A stretch of DNA of 64,000 nt. It comes from Candidatus Nitrosocosmicus franklandus (GTDB lineage Archaea > Thermoproteota > Nitrososphaeria > Nitrososphaerales > Nitrososphaeraceae). The position numbers and the translations under genes were made by a program. The notes under the pieces were generated by a model, which saw only the letters and a list, made by a program, of their open reading frames with translations, did no database searches and had not been told where the DNA came from. Location: assembly GCF_900696045.1 (NCBI RefSeq), contig NZ_LR216287.1:2399854-2463853 (forward strand). Direction: 5' to 3'. Numbering within the stretch: the stretch's first letter is position 1; each line of letters opens with the position of its first letter. Shown here piece by piece: positions 4,061 through 19,920 of this stretch.

Positions 4061-5404
4061 ATGCAGATCTCTTTGCAACTGGAAGGATTATGTAAGGATT
4101 TTATTGAAGTCAGGAACAAGACCATGGAGCTCTTTTCTCCATTGGGTGTAGAGGATGCAGTTATCCAATCCAGTGACTTTGGTAGTCCTCCAAACTGGCA
4201 TATAGCACATGTAACCTGGTTTTTTCATAAGATACTTGAGAAATACTCTGTCATTAGCATATCTCTAAAAGGTGATTATGACTTGTCATATTTAAACTCG
4301 TATTATCAGAAATACGGGTCTATACTGAAGAAAAGCGAGAGAGGCAAATACCCAAGACCTACTGTGTTACAAACAATAAAATACCGAAAAGAAATTGAGA
4401 AACTTTTTCTGGATTTTTTAAGGTTTGATACTATTAATTCAGTAGAAAATCCTTCTGGTCTAATTAGAGATATTCAGACAGCCATTAACCATGAAAGGCA
4501 ACATCAAGAACTTATGGTATATGATTTCCAACATTACTTTAGCCGTTTTGTAAATGAAAATGATAATTATTTTCCCAAATTTAGTTTCTCAATCAAACCA
4601 ATTAAGAAAATTCAAAAAGAAATGATTGAAATACCGGGAGGTATTTTTGTAATGGGTTTCAACGGAAACGGTTTTTGTTACGATAATGAATTACCTGCGC
4701 ACAAAGTTTATCTCAATGATTACAAGATTGACAATTCTTTAGTTACTAATAAAGAATACATCGAATTTATTGAATCAGGGGGATATCAAAACTATAGATA
4801 TTGGCTTGCAGATGGATGGGATATTGTAATAGAGAGAGACTGGACTTCTCCATTATATTGGAATTTTGATAAAGATAGAAATAGGTGGATCAAGAAAGAT
4901 TTTAGAGGAGTTCATGAAATTAGAGATTATGAACCAGTAACAAATGTGAGTTACTACGAGGCGGATGCATTTTGTAAATGGGCGAAAAAAAGATTACCCA
5001 CTGAAGCTGAATGGGAAAAGGCAGCTTCTTGGGATCCTACTACAGAGTCTAAAACCCTTTATCCTTGGGGAAATAACGCGGTAACAACTGAACATGCTAA
5101 TTTGCTAGAAACGTATATCTGGCACCCTACAGAAGTAGGATGTTTTCCTAAAGGTAGGAGTCATCTTGGCTGTTACCAAATGCTAGGTGATGTTTGGGAA
5201 TGGACTTCATCAGAATATTCGTTATATCCGGGGTTCGTATCAAGATTTGAGGAATATACAGACAAATGGGCTATAAATCAAAAAGTGCTTAGGGGTGGTT
5301 GTTTTGCTACCCCTACTAAACAAATCCGAAATAGTTATAGGAACTATTTTAAACCTCACGAAAGGATCCTTTTTTCTGGCTTTCGATGTGCTATGGATGC
5401 CTAG
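4061..5404 (+). CDS. egtB: EgtB-like hercynine oxygenase (DinB_2 + FGE-sulfatase domains)
   Basis: Two-domain non-haem iron enzyme related to EgtB, which joins a thiol to hercynine in ergothioneine synthesis. The N-terminal four-helix DinB-like domain (about 1-155) supplies the iron ligands: a histidine in NWHIAHVTWFF (H47 or H50) plus H144 and H148 in INHERQHQE, matching the family HxxxHxE pattern. The formylglycine-generating-enzyme-like domain (about 185-446) begins IPGGIFVMGFNGNGFCYDNE and ends with the conserved RGGCFATP...RNSYRNYF...FSGFRCA. No EgtD methyltransferase lies beside it. OvoA or selenoneine-type homologues share this architecture, so the exact sulfur product is inferred. ATG 4061 follows an AT-rich box at about 4024-4038. 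Confidence 0.8.
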   Translation: MQISLQLEGLCKDFIEVRNKTMELFSPLGVEDAVIQSSDFGSPPNWHIAHVTWFFHKILEKYSVISISLKGDYDLSYLNSYYQKYGSILKKSERGKYPRPTVLQTIKYRKEIEKLFLDFLRFDTINSVENPSGLIRDIQTAINHERQHQELMVYDFQHYFSRFVNENDNYFPKFSFSIKPIKKIQKEMIEIPGGIFVMGFNGNGFCYDNELPAHKVYLNDYKIDNSLVTNKEYIEFIESGGYQNYRYWLADGWDIVIERDWTSPLYWNFDKDRNRWIKKDFRGVHEIRDYEPVTNVSYYEADAFCKWAKKRLPTEAEWEKAASWDPTTESKTLYPWGNNAVTTEHANLLETYIWHPTEVGCFPKGRSHLGCYQMLGDVWEWTSSEYSLYPGFVSRFEEYTDKWAINQKVLRGGCFATPTKQIRNSYRNYFKPHERILFSGFRCAMDA

Positions 5405-13263: not shown

Positions 13264-13461
13264 ATGGCTGATTCTTTTGATAATATGATTTTCTCGTCAT
13301 CGTTGATTATATTCATTTTGGCGCTAATTTTTATTTTCGCCTATGATCTTTTGTTTGCAAGAGGAAGAGCAAATAGGATCGAAAATATACATGAAACGAG
13401 AAAACTTGGAAGGAAAGCCTCTAAAGCCAAGAATAAGCAGCAATTTGATAAAGTTGAATGA
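13264..13461 (+). CDS. small single-span membrane protein
   Basis: 65 residues with one strong membrane helix (about 11-28, SSSLIIFILALIFIFAYDLL) followed by a basic, Arg/Lys-rich cytoplasmic tail (RGRANRIENIHETRKLGRKASKAK). A TATA-like box at about 13223-13234 lies upstream. The last 71 nt overlap the likely start of the helicase gene in another frame. No family recognised. Reality is supported by the ATG start, promoter spacing and the clean membrane-plus-basic-tail pattern. Confidence 0.6.
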   Translation: MADSFDNMIFSSSLIIFILALIFIFAYDLLFARGRANRIENIHETRKLGRKASKAKNKQQFDKVE

Positions 13462-16237
13462 TTATAGTCTAACAGAACGGTTAATTTTAGATAAATTTGC
13501 AAAGGAATCTTTTGATCGATTAACATCGATTCAGGAACAGTCTTACAGGGTTATCGCTAGAAGAAAAAATTCTCTACTGGTTGCACCCACAGGCTCAGGA
13601 AAAACCGAAGCTGCTATCATTCCTGTAATTAGTATTCTAAGTGAAGAAAAGAATCATCAAAAAAAAAATAATGGTATCAAGTGTTTATATGTTACGCCTC
13701 AGCGTTCTCTAAATAATGATGTCCTAAGAAGGATAGTTAGATATGCCACTGCAGAAAATTTGAATGTTGAAATCAGACATGGAGACACTCCATATTCTAG
13801 GCGTAAGAAGATTGTCCAGCATCCTCCGGAGATATTGATTACTACTCCAGAATCATTGGGAATAATACTAGTAAATGAAAAAATGGGTGAGTTATTGAAA
13901 TCGGTACAGTGGGTCATTGTAGATGAAATTCATGAAATTATTCCTTCAAAACGTGGTGCCTATCTTTCCCTAGCATTGGAGCGTCTTGCATTATATAACT
14001 CCAATTTTTGCAGGATCGGAATTTCAGCTACTGTAGGAGATATATACGCTACGGCTAAATACCTTGTTGGGAACAAAAGGAAGTGTGCCATTATTATTGA
14101 TAGAACATTACGTAAATATGATCTGGAACTGAAACATATCGAAGGTTCGATTAAAGAAGTCTCAAGTTATATAGTAAATTACGTTAGTAGTAACCATCCG
14201 AATTCTTCAGTTTTACTATTTACTAATACTCGTGATGAATCAGAATTTTTGAGTACCTTGCTTAAAAGTCATACTTCATTAGAAGTTTATATTCACCACG
14301 GTTCATTATCCAAGGATGTAAGAGAAGAGACTGAAAAATTACTTAGAAAAGGTTTTGTGGGAATTGTTGTATGTACCTCTTCATTGGAGCTTGGTTTGGA
14401 TATAGGATCCATTGACCTTGTAATTCATTACGGATCACCAAGACAAGTTTCAAAATTGATGCAAAGGATTGGCCGTAGTAGGCATTCACATCATGCTTCG
14501 GCAAAGGGATTGATCATAACTAACAATTATGATGATTTTATCGAGTCTTTAAGCATCATTCATAGGGTGGAAAGAGGCTCGATTGAGGATCAAATCCCTC
14601 ATGAATGCGCCCTAGATGTACTGGCACACAATATAGTGGGAGCCATTCTACAAGGTAAAGAAAAATTAGATTTGAAAAAACTTTACGAGGTTTTTTCAAC
14701 AGCATTCCTATTCAGATCTTTGACTTTCTTTGATTTTGTTGATTGTATAAATATTTTATCTAACAATTACATCCTTAAATTTGACCGAGAAAAAAATCTA
14801 TTATATAGAACAAGGAAATCGTATCTTTACTACTATGAGAATATTTCAACTATACCTCATGTGACAAAGTTTGAAGTAATTGATTCAATAGCTAACAGGA
14901 GAATAGGAACGTTAGATCAGCAGTTCGTGGGCAATTATGGTGAAAAAGGAAATGTCTTTGTATTGAGAGGTTCACAATGGAGAATCCTGACAGTTAACGA
15001 GGCAAAATTTCAAGTTTATGTCGAACCCCTTAGTGGTGCACCAATTAACATCCCTTATTGGGTGGGTGAAATGATTCCTGTTGATCATGAGACTGCCATA
15101 CAAGTTGGCAAGATTAGAAGATTCATGAAATCATGCCGTTTATCTCAAATGAATGTGCTCAAATATGTTGACAAACAATTGGCCACACGAATAAATGATT
15201 ACTTGAAACCGTTAAAAGTAATTCCTGATTCAGATAACGTTGTTGTAGAGTCGGTACCTTCTGAAAACTTGGTAGTTATACATAGTACTTTTGGATCCAA
15301 AGTAAATAATACTCTAGGATCGCTCTTTTCAACATTCTTATCTTCTAAAACCGGGTACGAGGTTGAGTACAGGTCAGATCCTTATAGAATTTTATTAAGC
15401 TCAGCAAATACCCGAATAAGGCAAATCCATATCTTTTCTCTATTTGAGGACAACTTTGATATCGAATCTGTATTGATAGCTTCTTTTACAGGTACTTATA
15501 GTGCCAACTGGAAGGTTTGGATGGTTGCAAAACGTTTTGGAATCATTGACAAGAACTCTGTTTATGATAAGAGGATGGCTCGTATTATCTATGAGAGATA
15601 TCGTAAAACGTCGATTAGCAAGGAATCTATTAGAGAATTGATTCATGATAAATACGATATAGCAGCTACATCAGTCATTATTGAGAAAATCAAGTCTGGA
15701 TCTATTAAGTTACATTGGTTCGATAATTCTCAGTTTTCTGGTCTGTCTCAACCAATATTGTCTAAATCAAAGAAGATCGTTTCATCACCTCAAAATATGG
15801 AAAATGGTATTCTTGAATTGATCTACGAGAGACTGATAAAAACTAAGCACAAGTTAATTTGTGTAAGATGTGCATTATGGGAACGTATTTATGAAACCAA
15901 TGATGTGCCAGAAAAATTGACCTGTCCATACTGTAAATCAAGGTTAATCACAGCCACGTTTTGGAAAGATACTGAATTAAAAGATATTATCAGACGCAAG
16001 CTTATGGGGGGTAGTCTTGCCAAGGATGAAATGAATAAATTTGACAGAGCTTGGAAACTGGCCTCGTTGATCAATAATTTCGGTCGATTAGCAATCTTTG
16101 TTTTATCTGGTCATGGTATAGGTGTCGATACATGTGCCCGGATTTTGCGAAATTATACAGATGATCGGAATCTCTTGAAGGCGATCTATGAGGCAGAGAA
16201 ACAATATGTGATGACAAGAGGATTTTGGGACAATTGA
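13391..16237 (+). CDS. lhr: Lhr-type superfamily 2 DEAD/DEAH helicase
   Basis: ATP-dependent DNA/RNA helicase of the Lhr family, thought to act in DNA repair and recombination. Walker A is APTGSGKTEAA, motif II is VDEIHEI, SAT is SATVGD and motif VI is QRIGRSRHSHH. After the RecA domains (to about 420) come the Lhr winged-helix and beta-rich core (about 430-800). Near the C-terminus a CVRC...CPYC zinc ribbon is present, as in archaeal aLhr2-like proteins. ATG 13391 is chosen over the upstream ATG 13343, but both overlap the small membrane gene, and a later start is possible. At about 949 residues it is the long Lhr-core type. Confidence 0.88.
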   Translation: MKRENLEGKPLKPRISSNLIKLNDYSLTERLILDKFAKESFDRLTSIQEQSYRVIARRKNSLLVAPTGSGKTEAAIIPVISILSEEKNHQKKNNGIKCLYVTPQRSLNNDVLRRIVRYATAENLNVEIRHGDTPYSRRKKIVQHPPEILITTPESLGIILVNEKMGELLKSVQWVIVDEIHEIIPSKRGAYLSLALERLALYNSNFCRIGISATVGDIYATAKYLVGNKRKCAIIIDRTLRKYDLELKHIEGSIKEVSSYIVNYVSSNHPNSSVLLFTNTRDESEFLSTLLKSHTSLEVYIHHGSLSKDVREETEKLLRKGFVGIVVCTSSLELGLDIGSIDLVIHYGSPRQVSKLMQRIGRSRHSHHASAKGLIITNNYDDFIESLSIIHRVERGSIEDQIPHECALDVLAHNIVGAILQGKEKLDLKKLYEVFSTAFLFRSLTFFDFVDCINILSNNYILKFDREKNLLYRTRKSYLYYYENISTIPHVTKFEVIDSIANRRIGTLDQQFVGNYGEKGNVFVLRGSQWRILTVNEAKFQVYVEPLSGAPINIPYWVGEMIPVDHETAIQVGKIRRFMKSCRLSQMNVLKYVDKQLATRINDYLKPLKVIPDSDNVVVESVPSENLVVIHSTFGSKVNNTLGSLFSTFLSSKTGYEVEYRSDPYRILLSSANTRIRQIHIFSLFEDNFDIESVLIASFTGTYSANWKVWMVAKRFGIIDKNSVYDKRMARIIYERYRKTSISKESIRELIHDKYDIAATSVIIEKIKSGSIKLHWFDNSQFSGLSQPILSKSKKIVSSPQNMENGILELIYERLIKTKHKLICVRCALWERIYETNDVPEKLTCPYCKSRLITATFWKDTELKDIIRRKLMGGSLAKDEMNKFDRAWKLASLINNFGRLAIFVLSGHGIGVDTCARILRNYTDDRNLLKAIYEAEKQYVMTRGFWDN

Positions 16238-16274
16238 GATTTTGACTGCCATCAATATTTCCTTTCGATCACTG

Positions 16275-17717
16275 TTAGCTCACTTGAATGATTTCTGAAT
16301 ATGGCTTTAATGACAATTCAATATTTCCTTCTTTACCGCTAACCGCATTTACAGCTAATATCTTTATTCTCTCTCCAATTTTAAGTCGGCTTACTATCTC
16401 ACTGTTGTCCCGCCATCCCACTAATCTAATTTCGCCTGTGTCGTCACCTACTAATGTATCAGCTACCGTTACCTGTTCTCCAACTTTAGTAGTAACCTCC
16501 GACCTATTTGGTATTTGCAAGACAATGGCCTCAACCACAAATGGTTTGTTAGTTACACTGATATTTTTAATCTTAGTTTCAAACTGTTCGCCAGTGGGAA
16601 ATTCTTGATCTTTGCTCAAAACCTGAACAAAAGAGTCCTGATCAGTCAATTCAATTGAATTTCCCAATATTCTGTTTGGATAGCATTCAATTATGTCGTT
16701 AGGTTGTAGGTTCAAATCAAAGAGTCTGGTGTTTATTCTTAAAAAGTATGGTCTACTTTCTCTATCTATGGCCATACATAATAACATGTTGTCTTCCTGC
16801 TTGGGTCTACTAGAAATAATTCTCAAGATATAGTTCTCAGGTGGGGCCGCATCATCAGAGAGTTCAATTACAGTGCCTTCATCACCATGAATTTCTAAAT
16901 CACCATTACCAAAATTAGGATTTCCAGCTTTTGTCTTAACTCCAACCAATCTTATCCTGGAATTAACTGTCAATGTCTTTGGAACGTTTTCTTCATTTAT
17001 ATTCCAAATTACGGAACGTATCTTGCGCGAATTGTCTTCATTCGTCAATTCTAAATGTAGAGACTTTGCGCGTTCTCCTCTACTGTTAGTAAATTCAGAA
17101 ATTCTTGGATCCGAACTAATTTTACCTGCAATTACTAAGTTATCCTTAGGCAATGTCAAATCATCAATCAATTCTGTGATTTCTGATAAGGTTGGTATTT
17201 GATACTTGTTGTCTTCCACAATCAAATCTATGGAGCCACTGCTACCCAAATTTACGATAGGTTTGTTGTCCATGCCCGACTTTACCTGACAATTTGATAG
17301 CTTGATCAAGTCTCCTTGTCTAAGGTTAAGTTGTTCTGGCAACTCAACGAGATCATCCCAAAGTTTAATCTTGACACTAGAGTCCTTGTCATAAATAGTA
17401 ATAATCCTATTTCTTGATTGTTGGTCTGAATCTCTTTTCAAAAAAGTTCGAATAGGATTAATGGTTAGTATTCTCCCGATAATTGAAATATCTCGTGCAC
17501 CTATAAAAATATCTTTTAAGGCATACTCTGTCTTAGGGGATTTTTCCAGAGATACGCCCAAATCAGCAGCAACCAAGAATAAAGCTCCTTGGTCAGTTAA
17601 ATAACCTGCACCAACATTAGCTTTTTTTTCTTCAACCATCTCTTTCAGTTTATCGAAATCCAGTTCCTGCCTCTCCTCCAAAATTATTTCAATCATCTTG
17701 TTATAGTCTAATGTCAA
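16275..17717 (-). CDS. rpa: replication protein A (multi-OB single-strand DNA-binding protein)
   Basis: Archaeal RPA-like ssDNA-binding protein of 480 residues. A helical N-terminus (1-60) is followed by repeated OB-folds at about 70-165 (IIGRILTINPIRTF...VKIKLWDD...GDLIKLSNCQV), 185-280 (LVIAGKISSDPRISEF...IRSVIWN), 290-370 and 385-478 (VVEAIVLQIPNRSEV...GEIRLVGWRDN...GERIKILAVNAV). The VKLWDD/IRLVGW aromatic strands are the usual ssDNA-stacking positions. The start is TTG 17717; a TATA-like box (about 17738-17748) lies 25 nt upstream, consistent with a leaderless mRNA. It is convergent with the helicase gene. Confidence 0.85.
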   Translation of the reverse strand: MTLDYNKMIEIILEERQELDFDKLKEMVEEKKANVGAGYLTDQGALFLVAADLGVSLEKSPKTEYALKDIFIGARDISIIGRILTINPIRTFLKRDSDQQSRNRIITIYDKDSSVKIKLWDDLVELPEQLNLRQGDLIKLSNCQVKSGMDNKPIVNLGSSGSIDLIVEDNKYQIPTLSEITELIDDLTLPKDNLVIAGKISSDPRISEFTNSRGERAKSLHLELTNEDNSRKIRSVIWNINEENVPKTLTVNSRIRLVGVKTKAGNPNFGNGDLEIHGDEGTVIELSDDAAPPENYILRIISSRPKQEDNMLLCMAIDRESRPYFLRINTRLFDLNLQPNDIIECYPNRILGNSIELTDQDSFVQVLSKDQEFPTGEQFETKIKNISVTNKPFVVEAIVLQIPNRSEVTTKVGEQVTVADTLVGDDTGEIRLVGWRDNSEIVSRLKIGERIKILAVNAVSGKEGNIELSLKPYSEIIQVS

Positions 17718-17974: not shown

Positions 17975-19225
17975 CTATGACTTAATCTTTTTTATGAAAC
18001 TTAACTTATTCTTGCGATATAATAGATAGAGTCCTAGAAAACTCAGTGCTATTGTCACAGCTATAACTAAAATTACGATGATTTGCTGACTTTCAGACTC
18101 GATTGATGTTTGAGCGTTTATGGTACTATCTATTTGAGGTCCATTTTCCGAGAAATTGGTATTGGTACCATTGATTTTGATTATTTTTGAATTCGAATCA
18201 AATTCTATCATTAGTATTCTACTTTCGGTGTTATTAGGATATTGTATAGGTGATAGATTATTAATCATATTATTAGAAAATATTTCCTCTTCGCTCTTGT
18301 TTGTTACTTCTAGAAATTTTACTGGACGATCATCTATCATTACAGTAAAATTCTTATCATTTCCATTTGCCTTTGAATCAAGAATATCTCTTGGTATGTC
18401 TATCAATAGCTTACCATTATTGCTATATGACAATATCGACAATATTAATACATTGTTGCTCTGAGAATTTGTTATTAATTGAGTATTATTCAATATGCCT
18501 CCGGTAAGTTGCAAAGGCAAATGTTTAATGTTACTATTGGTAAGAATAGGAATATAAAATAGAGAACTTTCACTCAAGAGAGAAATATTTTCCTTGTCTA
18601 AATAACTGGTATTGGTACCATTGATTTTGATTATTTTTGAATTCGAATCAAATTCTATCATTAGTATTCTACTTTCGGTGTTATTAGGATATTGTATAGG
18701 TGATAGATTATTAATCATATTATTAGAAAATATTTCCTCTTCGCTCTTGTTTGTTACTTCTAGAAATTTTACTGGACGATCATCTATCATTACAGTAAAA
18801 TTCTTATCATTTCCATTTGCCTTTGAATCAAGAATATCTCTTGGTATGTCTATCAATAGCTTACCAGATAGAGTATTTCGAGGATCAGTTATTATAATAA
18901 TACTTTTTTCATCATTATCAAAAAAAATCGTAGAAATGAAGTTACCATAACTTGATATCGATATTGGTAATATGATTTCCCCTATCTTTATTGGATAATA
19001 AACATTAGATAATATTTCTGAACTATTGGTCTGATTCCTATTTGAATTAATGAAGCCTGTTTCATTCTTGACAATAAAGGTTGATTGGTCAGCAGATGCT
19101 CCAGACGACTCTAAACTCGGTAGAAAATGGGTAAGTCCAATACTTATTAATCCTATTATCATAAATGAAATAGGGAAATTTTTTCGTACATTGCTGTTAA
19201 CCAGTACATCTCCAATTTTCCACAA
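17975..19225 (-). CDS. membrane-anchored extracellular protein with two duplicated domains
   Basis: 416 residues: an N-terminal signal/anchor (about 17-35, FPISFMIIGLISIGLTHFLP) and a C-terminal membrane helix (about 383-403, IIVILVIAVTIALSFLGLYLL) followed by a basic tail. Between them are two repeats of about 150 residues. In each, about 86 residues are identical, from GKLLIDIPRDILD to IKIINGTNT, while the preceding parts have diverged (YPIKIGEIILPISI versus FYIPILTNSNIKHL). The 'IDIPRDILDSK...' pattern resembles a domain common in secreted thaumarchaeal proteins. Numerous Asn-X-Ser/Thr sequons suggest surface glycosylation. Function unknown; a cell-surface structural or adhesion role is inferred. 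Confidence 0.75.
   Translation of the reverse strand: MWKIGDVLVNSNVRKNFPISFMIIGLISIGLTHFLPSLESSGASADQSTFIVKNETGFINSNRNQTNSSEILSNVYYPIKIGEIILPISISSYGNFISTIFFDNDEKSIIIITDPRNTLSGKLLIDIPRDILDSKANGNDKNFTVMIDDRPVKFLEVTNKSEEEIFSNNMINNLSPIQYPNNTESRILMIEFDSNSKIIKINGTNTSYLDKENISLLSESSLFYIPILTNSNIKHLPLQLTGGILNNTQLITNSQSNNVLILSILSYSNNGKLLIDIPRDILDSKANGNDKNFTVMIDDRPVKFLEVTNKSEEEIFSNNMINNLSPIQYPNNTESRILMIEFDSNSKIIKINGTNTNFSENGPQIDSTINAQTSIESESQQIIVILVIAVTIALSFLGLYLLYRKNKLSFIKKIKS
18157..18416 (-). repeat. 260-bp direct repeat, copy encoding residues about 270-356
   Basis: Identical over 260 bp to 18607-18866 (offset exactly 450 bp). Identity ends abruptly at both sides (18156 T versus 18606 C; 18417 T versus 18867 G), while the protein flanks are clearly diverged. 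Confidence 0.97.
18607..18866 (-). repeat. 260-bp direct repeat, copy encoding residues about 120-206
   Basis: Partner of 18157-18416 with no mismatch found on line-by-line comparison. The repeat keeps reading frame (offset 450 bp, 150 codons). Confidence 0.97.
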
Positions 19226-19590: not shown

Positions 19591-19668
19591 TCGAACTGCA
19601 TTTTATAGGATATTTGACGTTTCTTTTGTTAAGACATACTTTATGTTTTACTCGGAGGAGTGAGATCT

Positions 19669-19920
19669 TTGTCTAGTGAAAAAAAAGATATAAAGATTGT
19701 TGATCACATTTACCAACCTAAACATGAAATCCTCTCAAAGGAAGAGGCCGAACTTGTTTTTAAGAAATTTAATGCCAAACCTAGTCAATTCCCATATATT
19801 ATGTCATCTGATAAAGGGATACAAGGCTTAGGAGCGCAACCTGGAGATGTTATCAAAATCACCCGGAAGAGTTCTACAGCAGGTGAAAGTGTATATTACA
19901 GATACGTAGTAGAAGGTTGA
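19669..19920 (+). CDS. rpoH: DNA-directed RNA polymerase subunit H (Rpb5-like)
   Basis: Small archaeal RNA polymerase subunit equivalent to the C-terminal domain of eukaryotic Rpb5. The 83 residues contain VDHIYQPKHEILSKEEAELVF, a segment equivalent to PYI..SD...GLGAQPGDVIKI, and SVYYRYVVEG, all hallmark positions. A GGAGG Shine-Dalgarno at 19654-19658 is 10 nt before TTG 19669, which is preferred over GTG 19660 that overlaps the site. It is the first gene of the RNA polymerase operon and ends 8 nt before rpoB. Confidence 0.93.
   Translation: MSSEKKDIKIVDHIYQPKHEILSKEEAELVFKKFNAKPSQFPYIMSSDKGIQGLGAQPGDVIKITRKSSTAGESVYYRYVVEG

Follow-up and report, generated by a model that had tools for sequence, protein, structure and literature searches.

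A segment of 260 bp that occurs twice within one reading frame of Candidatus Nitrosocosmicus franklandus belongs to a repeat pair that is identical in every two-copy assembly of the genus. The layout is older than the genus, the repeat has accumulated substitutions between species at a near-normal rate, and identity between the copies recurs from lineage to lineage. We attribute this pattern, with a probability of roughly 80%, to non-allelic homologous recombination that operates continuously, most likely as short-tract gene conversion, and homogenises the C-terminal two thirds of two tandem domains. The case is real, well explained in kind, and unusual in its form and persistence. The gene, here termed gene A, lies in a window of 64,000 nucleotides (the whole stretch of DNA that was analysed), taken from a genome assembled as one contig of 2,836,447 bp. 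Nitrosocosmicus comprises soil ammonia-oxidising archaea of the order Nitrososphaerales.

Direct comparison within the window demonstrated that the two copies (R1 and R2, Table 1) matched at 260 of 260 positions, with starts 450 bp apart and both copies in frame in a single ORF. The match broke off abruptly at both ends, and outside the copies 6–14 of 30 bases agreed per 30-bp step, which is the chance level. An earlier sequence-only reading had described two identical in-frame segments of this length and spacing with different flanks, and this description is borne out. A repeat finder and blastn stretched the pair to 263 bp (99.6% identity in blastn). The 190-bp spacer between the copies exhibited no DNA-level similarity to the corresponding stretch beside the other copy. 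Since the pair was the sole exact direct repeat of ≥60 bp within 6 kb in the whole 64-kb window, a chance origin can be ruled out. According to the orthologs and the structural model, R1 begins at the strand bearing the IDIPR motif.

Table 1. Features of gene A and its syntenic neighbours, in window coordinates; protein features are predictions.
Feature	Position	Strand	Basis
OB-fold protein, syntenic neighbour	16275..17717	-	PF01336, 8e-10; "RPA-like" is our own label
Gene A, 416-aa membrane-anchored protein with two beta-sandwich-type domains	17975..19225	-	ORF, translation, AlphaFold2 model
C-terminal transmembrane helix with basic tail	17981..18097	-	Model helix 377-415; translation
Repeat copy R2	18157..18416	-	C-terminal two thirds of domain 2; identical to 18607-18866
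Spacer S	18417..18606	-	Linker and diverged N-terminal half of domain 2 (u2); orthologous genus-wide
Repeat copy R1	18607..18866	-	C-terminal two thirds of domain 1; identical to 18157-18416
u1, diverged N-terminal half of domain 1	18867..19018	-	Half-domain comparison, tree
N-terminal hydrophobic helix (signal peptide or anchor)	19130..19177	-	Translation; low-confidence model helix 17-32
RNA polymerase subunit H (Rpb5 C-terminal domain), syntenic neighbour, followed by rpoB	19660..19920	+	PF01191, 1e-27

Gene A was matched in all 15 Nitrosocosmicus genomes, that of C. N. franklandus included. Nine assemblies carried two copies of the repeat, four carried one (L007, L011, L012 and L013), and in the remaining two the contig began or ended inside the repeat (L009 and L015); none of the 15 had three or more. 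The sequence-only reading had raised the question whether the copies are also identical in relatives. They were exactly identical at the DNA level in nine of nine two-copy orthologs, where they measured 259–292 bp, lay in frame at a spacing of 447–498 bp, and constituted both the homologous pair and the longest exact repeat of the gene. Three single-contig genomes (C. N. franklandus and two others) shared this layout, and all five assemblies of at most 40 contigs carried two copies. One-copy forms were confined to fragmented assemblies (4/4), and the gene stayed in frame across the lost unit in three of the four. A 64-bp tandem duplication at the repeat end or join, breaking the frame, was observed at L013 and at L059 (G012); at L013 it looks like an assembly error caused by a wrong contig join. 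The other three one-copy assemblies bore no such scar.

The upstream (5') edge of the repeat always lay no more than a few codons ahead of the IPR motif in the nine orthologs, and the downstream edge shifted by about ten codons between them. Protein identity to the window protein was 27–47% in the six orthologs aligned, and both domains shared conserved motifs, including IPR and NFTV. A run of threonine codons within the repeat differed in length and sequence between the sister species represented by L010 and L014 (G009 and G010), and within each of these genes it was the same in both copies.

The half-domains that precede the repeats in the protein indicate how old the layout is. Among the nine genes, mean identity was 39% for u1–u1 and 40% for u2–u2 comparisons, versus 15–16% for u1–u2 and 15% for u1–u2 within the same gene. 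In a tree of the 18 half-domains, u1 and u2 fell on opposite sides of a branch with a support of 100/100; long branches were flagged in this tree, and the label split was found in 100% of 200 bootstrap trees. The two-domain layout therefore predates the radiation of the genus. In every lineage, the second part of each domain has undergone homogenisation since that radiation.

Repeat sequences differed at 16–145 positions between species versus 0 within each genome (9/9), and all between-species changes occurred in both copies; in the closest pair, L010/L014, each of the 16 differing positions was doubled. The repeat tree required at least 442 substitutions, with 0 between-copy mismatches in 2478 bp. 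The terminal branches alone would be expected to leave from 13 (shortest) to 280 differences per gene if homogenisation did not operate. Under equal rates, and with the assemblies taken at face value, the last homogenisation was on average no older than 6.05e-4 substitutions per site per copy (95% upper bound). Synonymous sites were identical between the copies and strongly diverged or saturated between most species. Among close species, dS of the repeat was 0.30 (L003/L005), 0.40 (L004/L005), 0.50 (L003/L004), 0.47 (L008/L010), 0.55 (L008/L014) and 0.13 (L010/L014). Corresponding values for closer clades were 0.35–0.54 in the N-terminal part and 0.25–1.04 in the spacer, dropping to 0.05 and 0.08, respectively, for the closest pair L010/L014. 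The repeat is thus not frozen, as its dS is near that of the N-terminal part and mostly near that of the spacer, and such proximity to the flanks fits conversion without direction bias.

These results agree with the earlier proposal of gene conversion between two old tandem domains, in that the N-terminal half-domains split before the genus arose and the segment following them is identical within each species. The proposal had called the event recent, which is accurate for the last exchange only; the process recurs in every lineage. A fresh duplication replacing one half of the gene, offered at the same time, finds no support, the spacer and both flanks being orthologous across the genus. The suggestion that the homogenisation reflects selection on a surface structure, or variation of one, fared no better: dN/dS of the repeat was below 1 in comparisons with finite dS, which also led us to reject positive selection, the substitution rate was about that of the flanks, no assembly contained three copies and one-copy forms were limited to fragmented assemblies.

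Under continuous conversion, copies lying 190 bp apart would exchange sequence on one chromosome or between sister copies, and the exchange would presumably be carried out by general recombination enzymes. The tract would end where the two domains cease to share homology; their N-terminal halves, having diverged long ago, would no longer recombine, so that the cliff-like edges would persist. The position of these edges is probably held by the conserved motifs at the repeat rims together with the absence of homology beyond them. Exchange most probably took the form of conversion rather than repeated unequal crossing-over. Conversion with no preferred direction accounts better than repeated loss and gain for two observations: no assembly carried more than two copies, and the substitution rate was near normal.

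Cycles of unequal crossing-over, in which a 450-bp unit (spacer plus repeat) would be added and removed, with one- and three-copy genes as intermediates, possibly as a protein length switch, form the strongest competing explanation, which we nevertheless consider unlikely. One-copy assemblies in 4 of 15 genomes, three of them in frame over the lost unit, and the tandem arrays common in exported-type proteins of C. N. franklandus speak in its favour. The one-copy assemblies leave room for unequal crossing-over, and they may represent true deletions between the repeats. However, three-copy genes were found in 0 of 15 genomes, the one-copy form appeared solely in fragmented assemblies, one of them scarred, and five of five assemblies with at most 40 contigs had two copies. 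Moreover, a one-copy gene would be unable to regrow the ancient spacer without a two-copy chromosome.

An artefact, with a single real copy doubled or two copies forced to a consensus by the assembler, is highly improbable. Repeats of 260 bp are mishandled by short-read assembly, the repeat is cut by a contig end in G006 and G011, and a consensus error could mask a mismatch or two in any one genome. However, the layout is shared by three single-contig genomes and by two more with at most 40 contigs, and the spacer is ancient orthologous sequence. Still less credible is purifying selection for two identical faces of the protein, with no special recombination. The motifs common to both domains would fit it, but silent sites are equal between copies although strongly diverged or saturated between most species, and the threonine-codon run varies between sister species while remaining the same in both copies. 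Because even silent sites are identical, selection on the protein cannot be the whole explanation and could act only alongside homogenisation.

Several other candidates were rejected. No signature of GC-biased conversion was detected across the nine orthologs, where third-position GC of the repeat was above that of the N-terminal part in four and below it in five, an inconsistent direction. Site-specific recombination through a conserved border DNA element was dismissed because the codons for conserved residues vary along the repeat, so that no constrained DNA site is seen. In diversity-generating retroelements, the variable repeat differs from the template repeat at adenines; a template/variable pair does not fit the 0 mismatches between the copies in 9/9 orthologs.

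Most descriptions of concerted evolution in prokaryotes concern whole genes such as rRNA and tuf. In PMC6053082, 26 prokaryotic genes, taken as whole genes and including tuf, mtrA and an archaeal histone, are listed as evolving in concert recurrently and over long times. Gene A behaves like the paralogs in that account: copies within a genome are closer than orthologs between species, silent sites included. Its duplication is also older than the species compared, as the u1/u2 split indicates. The paralogs described there are separate whole genes, whereas in gene A part of a domain occurs twice in one reading frame, with sharp mid-domain edges and identity in 9/9. Whole paralogous genes were already known to evolve in concert over long times; gene A adds a variant in which this persists within a single gene. 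A block of 260–290 bp in one single-copy gene is kept identical genus-wide, and the old non-homologous spacer dates the layout. Gene A thereby permits a bound on the rate of homogenisation relative to mutation, in a genus with cultured members.

Intragenic repeats that resemble each other more closely than they resemble their orthologous counterparts are relatively rare according to the accessible part of PMC5120217. The homogenised protein repeats it describes are, like those of gene A, intragenic, but they form arrays, whereas gene A has an isolated pair whose conserved spacer is non-homologous. In Periscope Proteins (SHIRT and similar), which are surface proteins, the folded domains are encoded by DNA repeats that are nearly identical, as outlined in the consulted sections of PMC8201768. 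Gene A shares the DNA identity, and its beta domains and surface location are predictions from models and sequence. In the same sections the Periscope repeats appear as adjacent head-to-tail arrays whose number varies between strains, whereas gene A has two copies split by a diverged half-domain, with a 190-bp spacer between them, and its copy number across 15 assemblies was two in nine, one in four (fragmented) and cut off in two. Efficient intermolecular gene conversion equalises the chromosomes of Haloferax, per the available portion of PMC11276520; that process is allelic and acts between genome copies, whereas exchange in gene A would be non-allelic and within the gene.

Our literature search returned no statement on the ploidy of Nitrosocosmicus and no paper on gene conversion in this genus. 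Likewise, gene A or an intragenic case in ammonia-oxidising archaea was not found in the titles covered, which were mostly outside subscription. Among the biofilm surface genes named in the available text of PMC12448741, none could be matched to gene A.

The wider occurrence of such pairs was surveyed by self-comparison of 464 kb of the C. N. franklandus genome (the window plus 400 kb sampled). Only two isolated spaced pairs came close to identity, those of gene A and of an exported-type gene on the minus strand (L072:14233-14532, gene B); one further spaced pair had 69% identity, and tandem arrays were present in several exported-type proteins. The gene B copies were 104–108 bp long at a spacing of 180–192, and the pair ends in a Cys-containing motif (ACFDRAF...ECA). 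Gene B was matched in 14 genomes of the genus, nine of which had at least two copies. Between-copy mismatches in its 96-nt core were 0–1 in seven of these nine, and the core differed between genomes at 3–53 sites, with the exception of G012/G004 at 1. Two genomes escaped homogenisation: G008 had 7/96 mismatches plus a third, diverged copy, and G009 had 20/96.

According to the sections available of PMC11559005, Nitrosocosmicus lacks an S-layer and has a hair-like glycocalyx. One may speculate that short-range conversion is unusually active in exported-type genes of this genus, in at least genes A and B, and that identical copies are maintained because they serve as substrate for recombination, so that a surface protein could switch reversibly between one and two domains in a lineage without S-layer; we hold this idea to be doubtful.

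Other samples yielded few comparable pairs. A 400-kb sample of G004 contained arrays only and lacked any isolated, exactly matching spaced pair within one ORF. The sole such pair in a 400-kb sample of G026, from another genus, was a 153-bp exact repeat (L107:4259-4411 and 4556-4708) in the N-terminal region of an RTX/Ig-domain ORF of 781 codons; a search of 17 other genomes of that genus gave no match. Its copies are the second parts of two adjacent similar segments and are identical, and the first parts are different. In C. N. franklandus, a calcineurin-like phosphoesterase fused to a repeat domain (L062:9587-10270) contained mixed tandem units, one of them exact over 324 bp; of the 15 genus genomes, this gene was matched in its own only.

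The domain of gene A, a predicted beta sandwich with a conserved PR...D...V motif (window 18152-18571 and 18608-19018), was matched in 104 of 150 genomes sampled in the class, often in several copies per genome. No Pfam match above the cut-off was obtained for the family in the members scanned. Among relatives in other genera, L049–L052 had two domains and L053 had one in the frame read (L054 was left out). In all four two-domain relatives examined, the copies were diverged and not homogenised, so homogenisation is not inherent to the domain pair. PEFG-CTERM was detected in two of four scanned relatives (L051 and L053), and some PEFG-CTERM surface proteins of ammonia-oxidising archaea (TIGR04296) thus carry the same uncharacterised beta domain. 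Gene A, in contrast, has no PEFG motif (no TIGR04296 match up to E = 10) and has its own C-terminal transmembrane helix instead.

The AlphaFold2 model of the whole gene A protein comprised two beta domains and terminal helices at a mean pLDDT of 57, and its comparison with the PDB gave no match at E ≤ 0.001. A single-domain model was better (pLDDT 77, pTM 0.74) and predicted a beta sandwich, with the repeat starting at its fifth strand; Foldseek again returned nothing at E ≤ 0.001. In a second structural comparison of this model, Z did not exceed 7.3; the matches included several beta domains that glycoside hydrolases use for carbohydrate binding or as accessory modules, a class commonly returned according to the tool note. 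A PDB sequence search with the protein gave 0 matches, and its Pfam and NCBIfam matches, all under the cut-off, were treated as meaningless. A sugar-binding role for the domain would therefore be only a guess. The C-terminus showed a weak resemblance to LPXTG-type anchors, far under the cut-off. The product is predicted to lie on the cell surface. An Asn/Ser/Thr-rich loop lies inside the repeat and is absent from the aligned relatives of other genera. The protein contained 17 N-x-S/T sequons versus 8.8 expected from shuffles, and the count exceeded the shuffle mean in 9/9 orthologs; the earlier label "glycosylation-rich" therefore holds as a sequence prediction.

The gene order OB-fold protein, gene A, RNA polymerase subunits H and B was conserved in 7/7 neighbourhoods checked. 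Genes for the OB-fold (RPA-like) protein and an Lhr-type helicase adjoin the homogenised gene in the window (13343-17717), in conserved order, and the DNA-acting potential of these neighbours is probably a coincidence.
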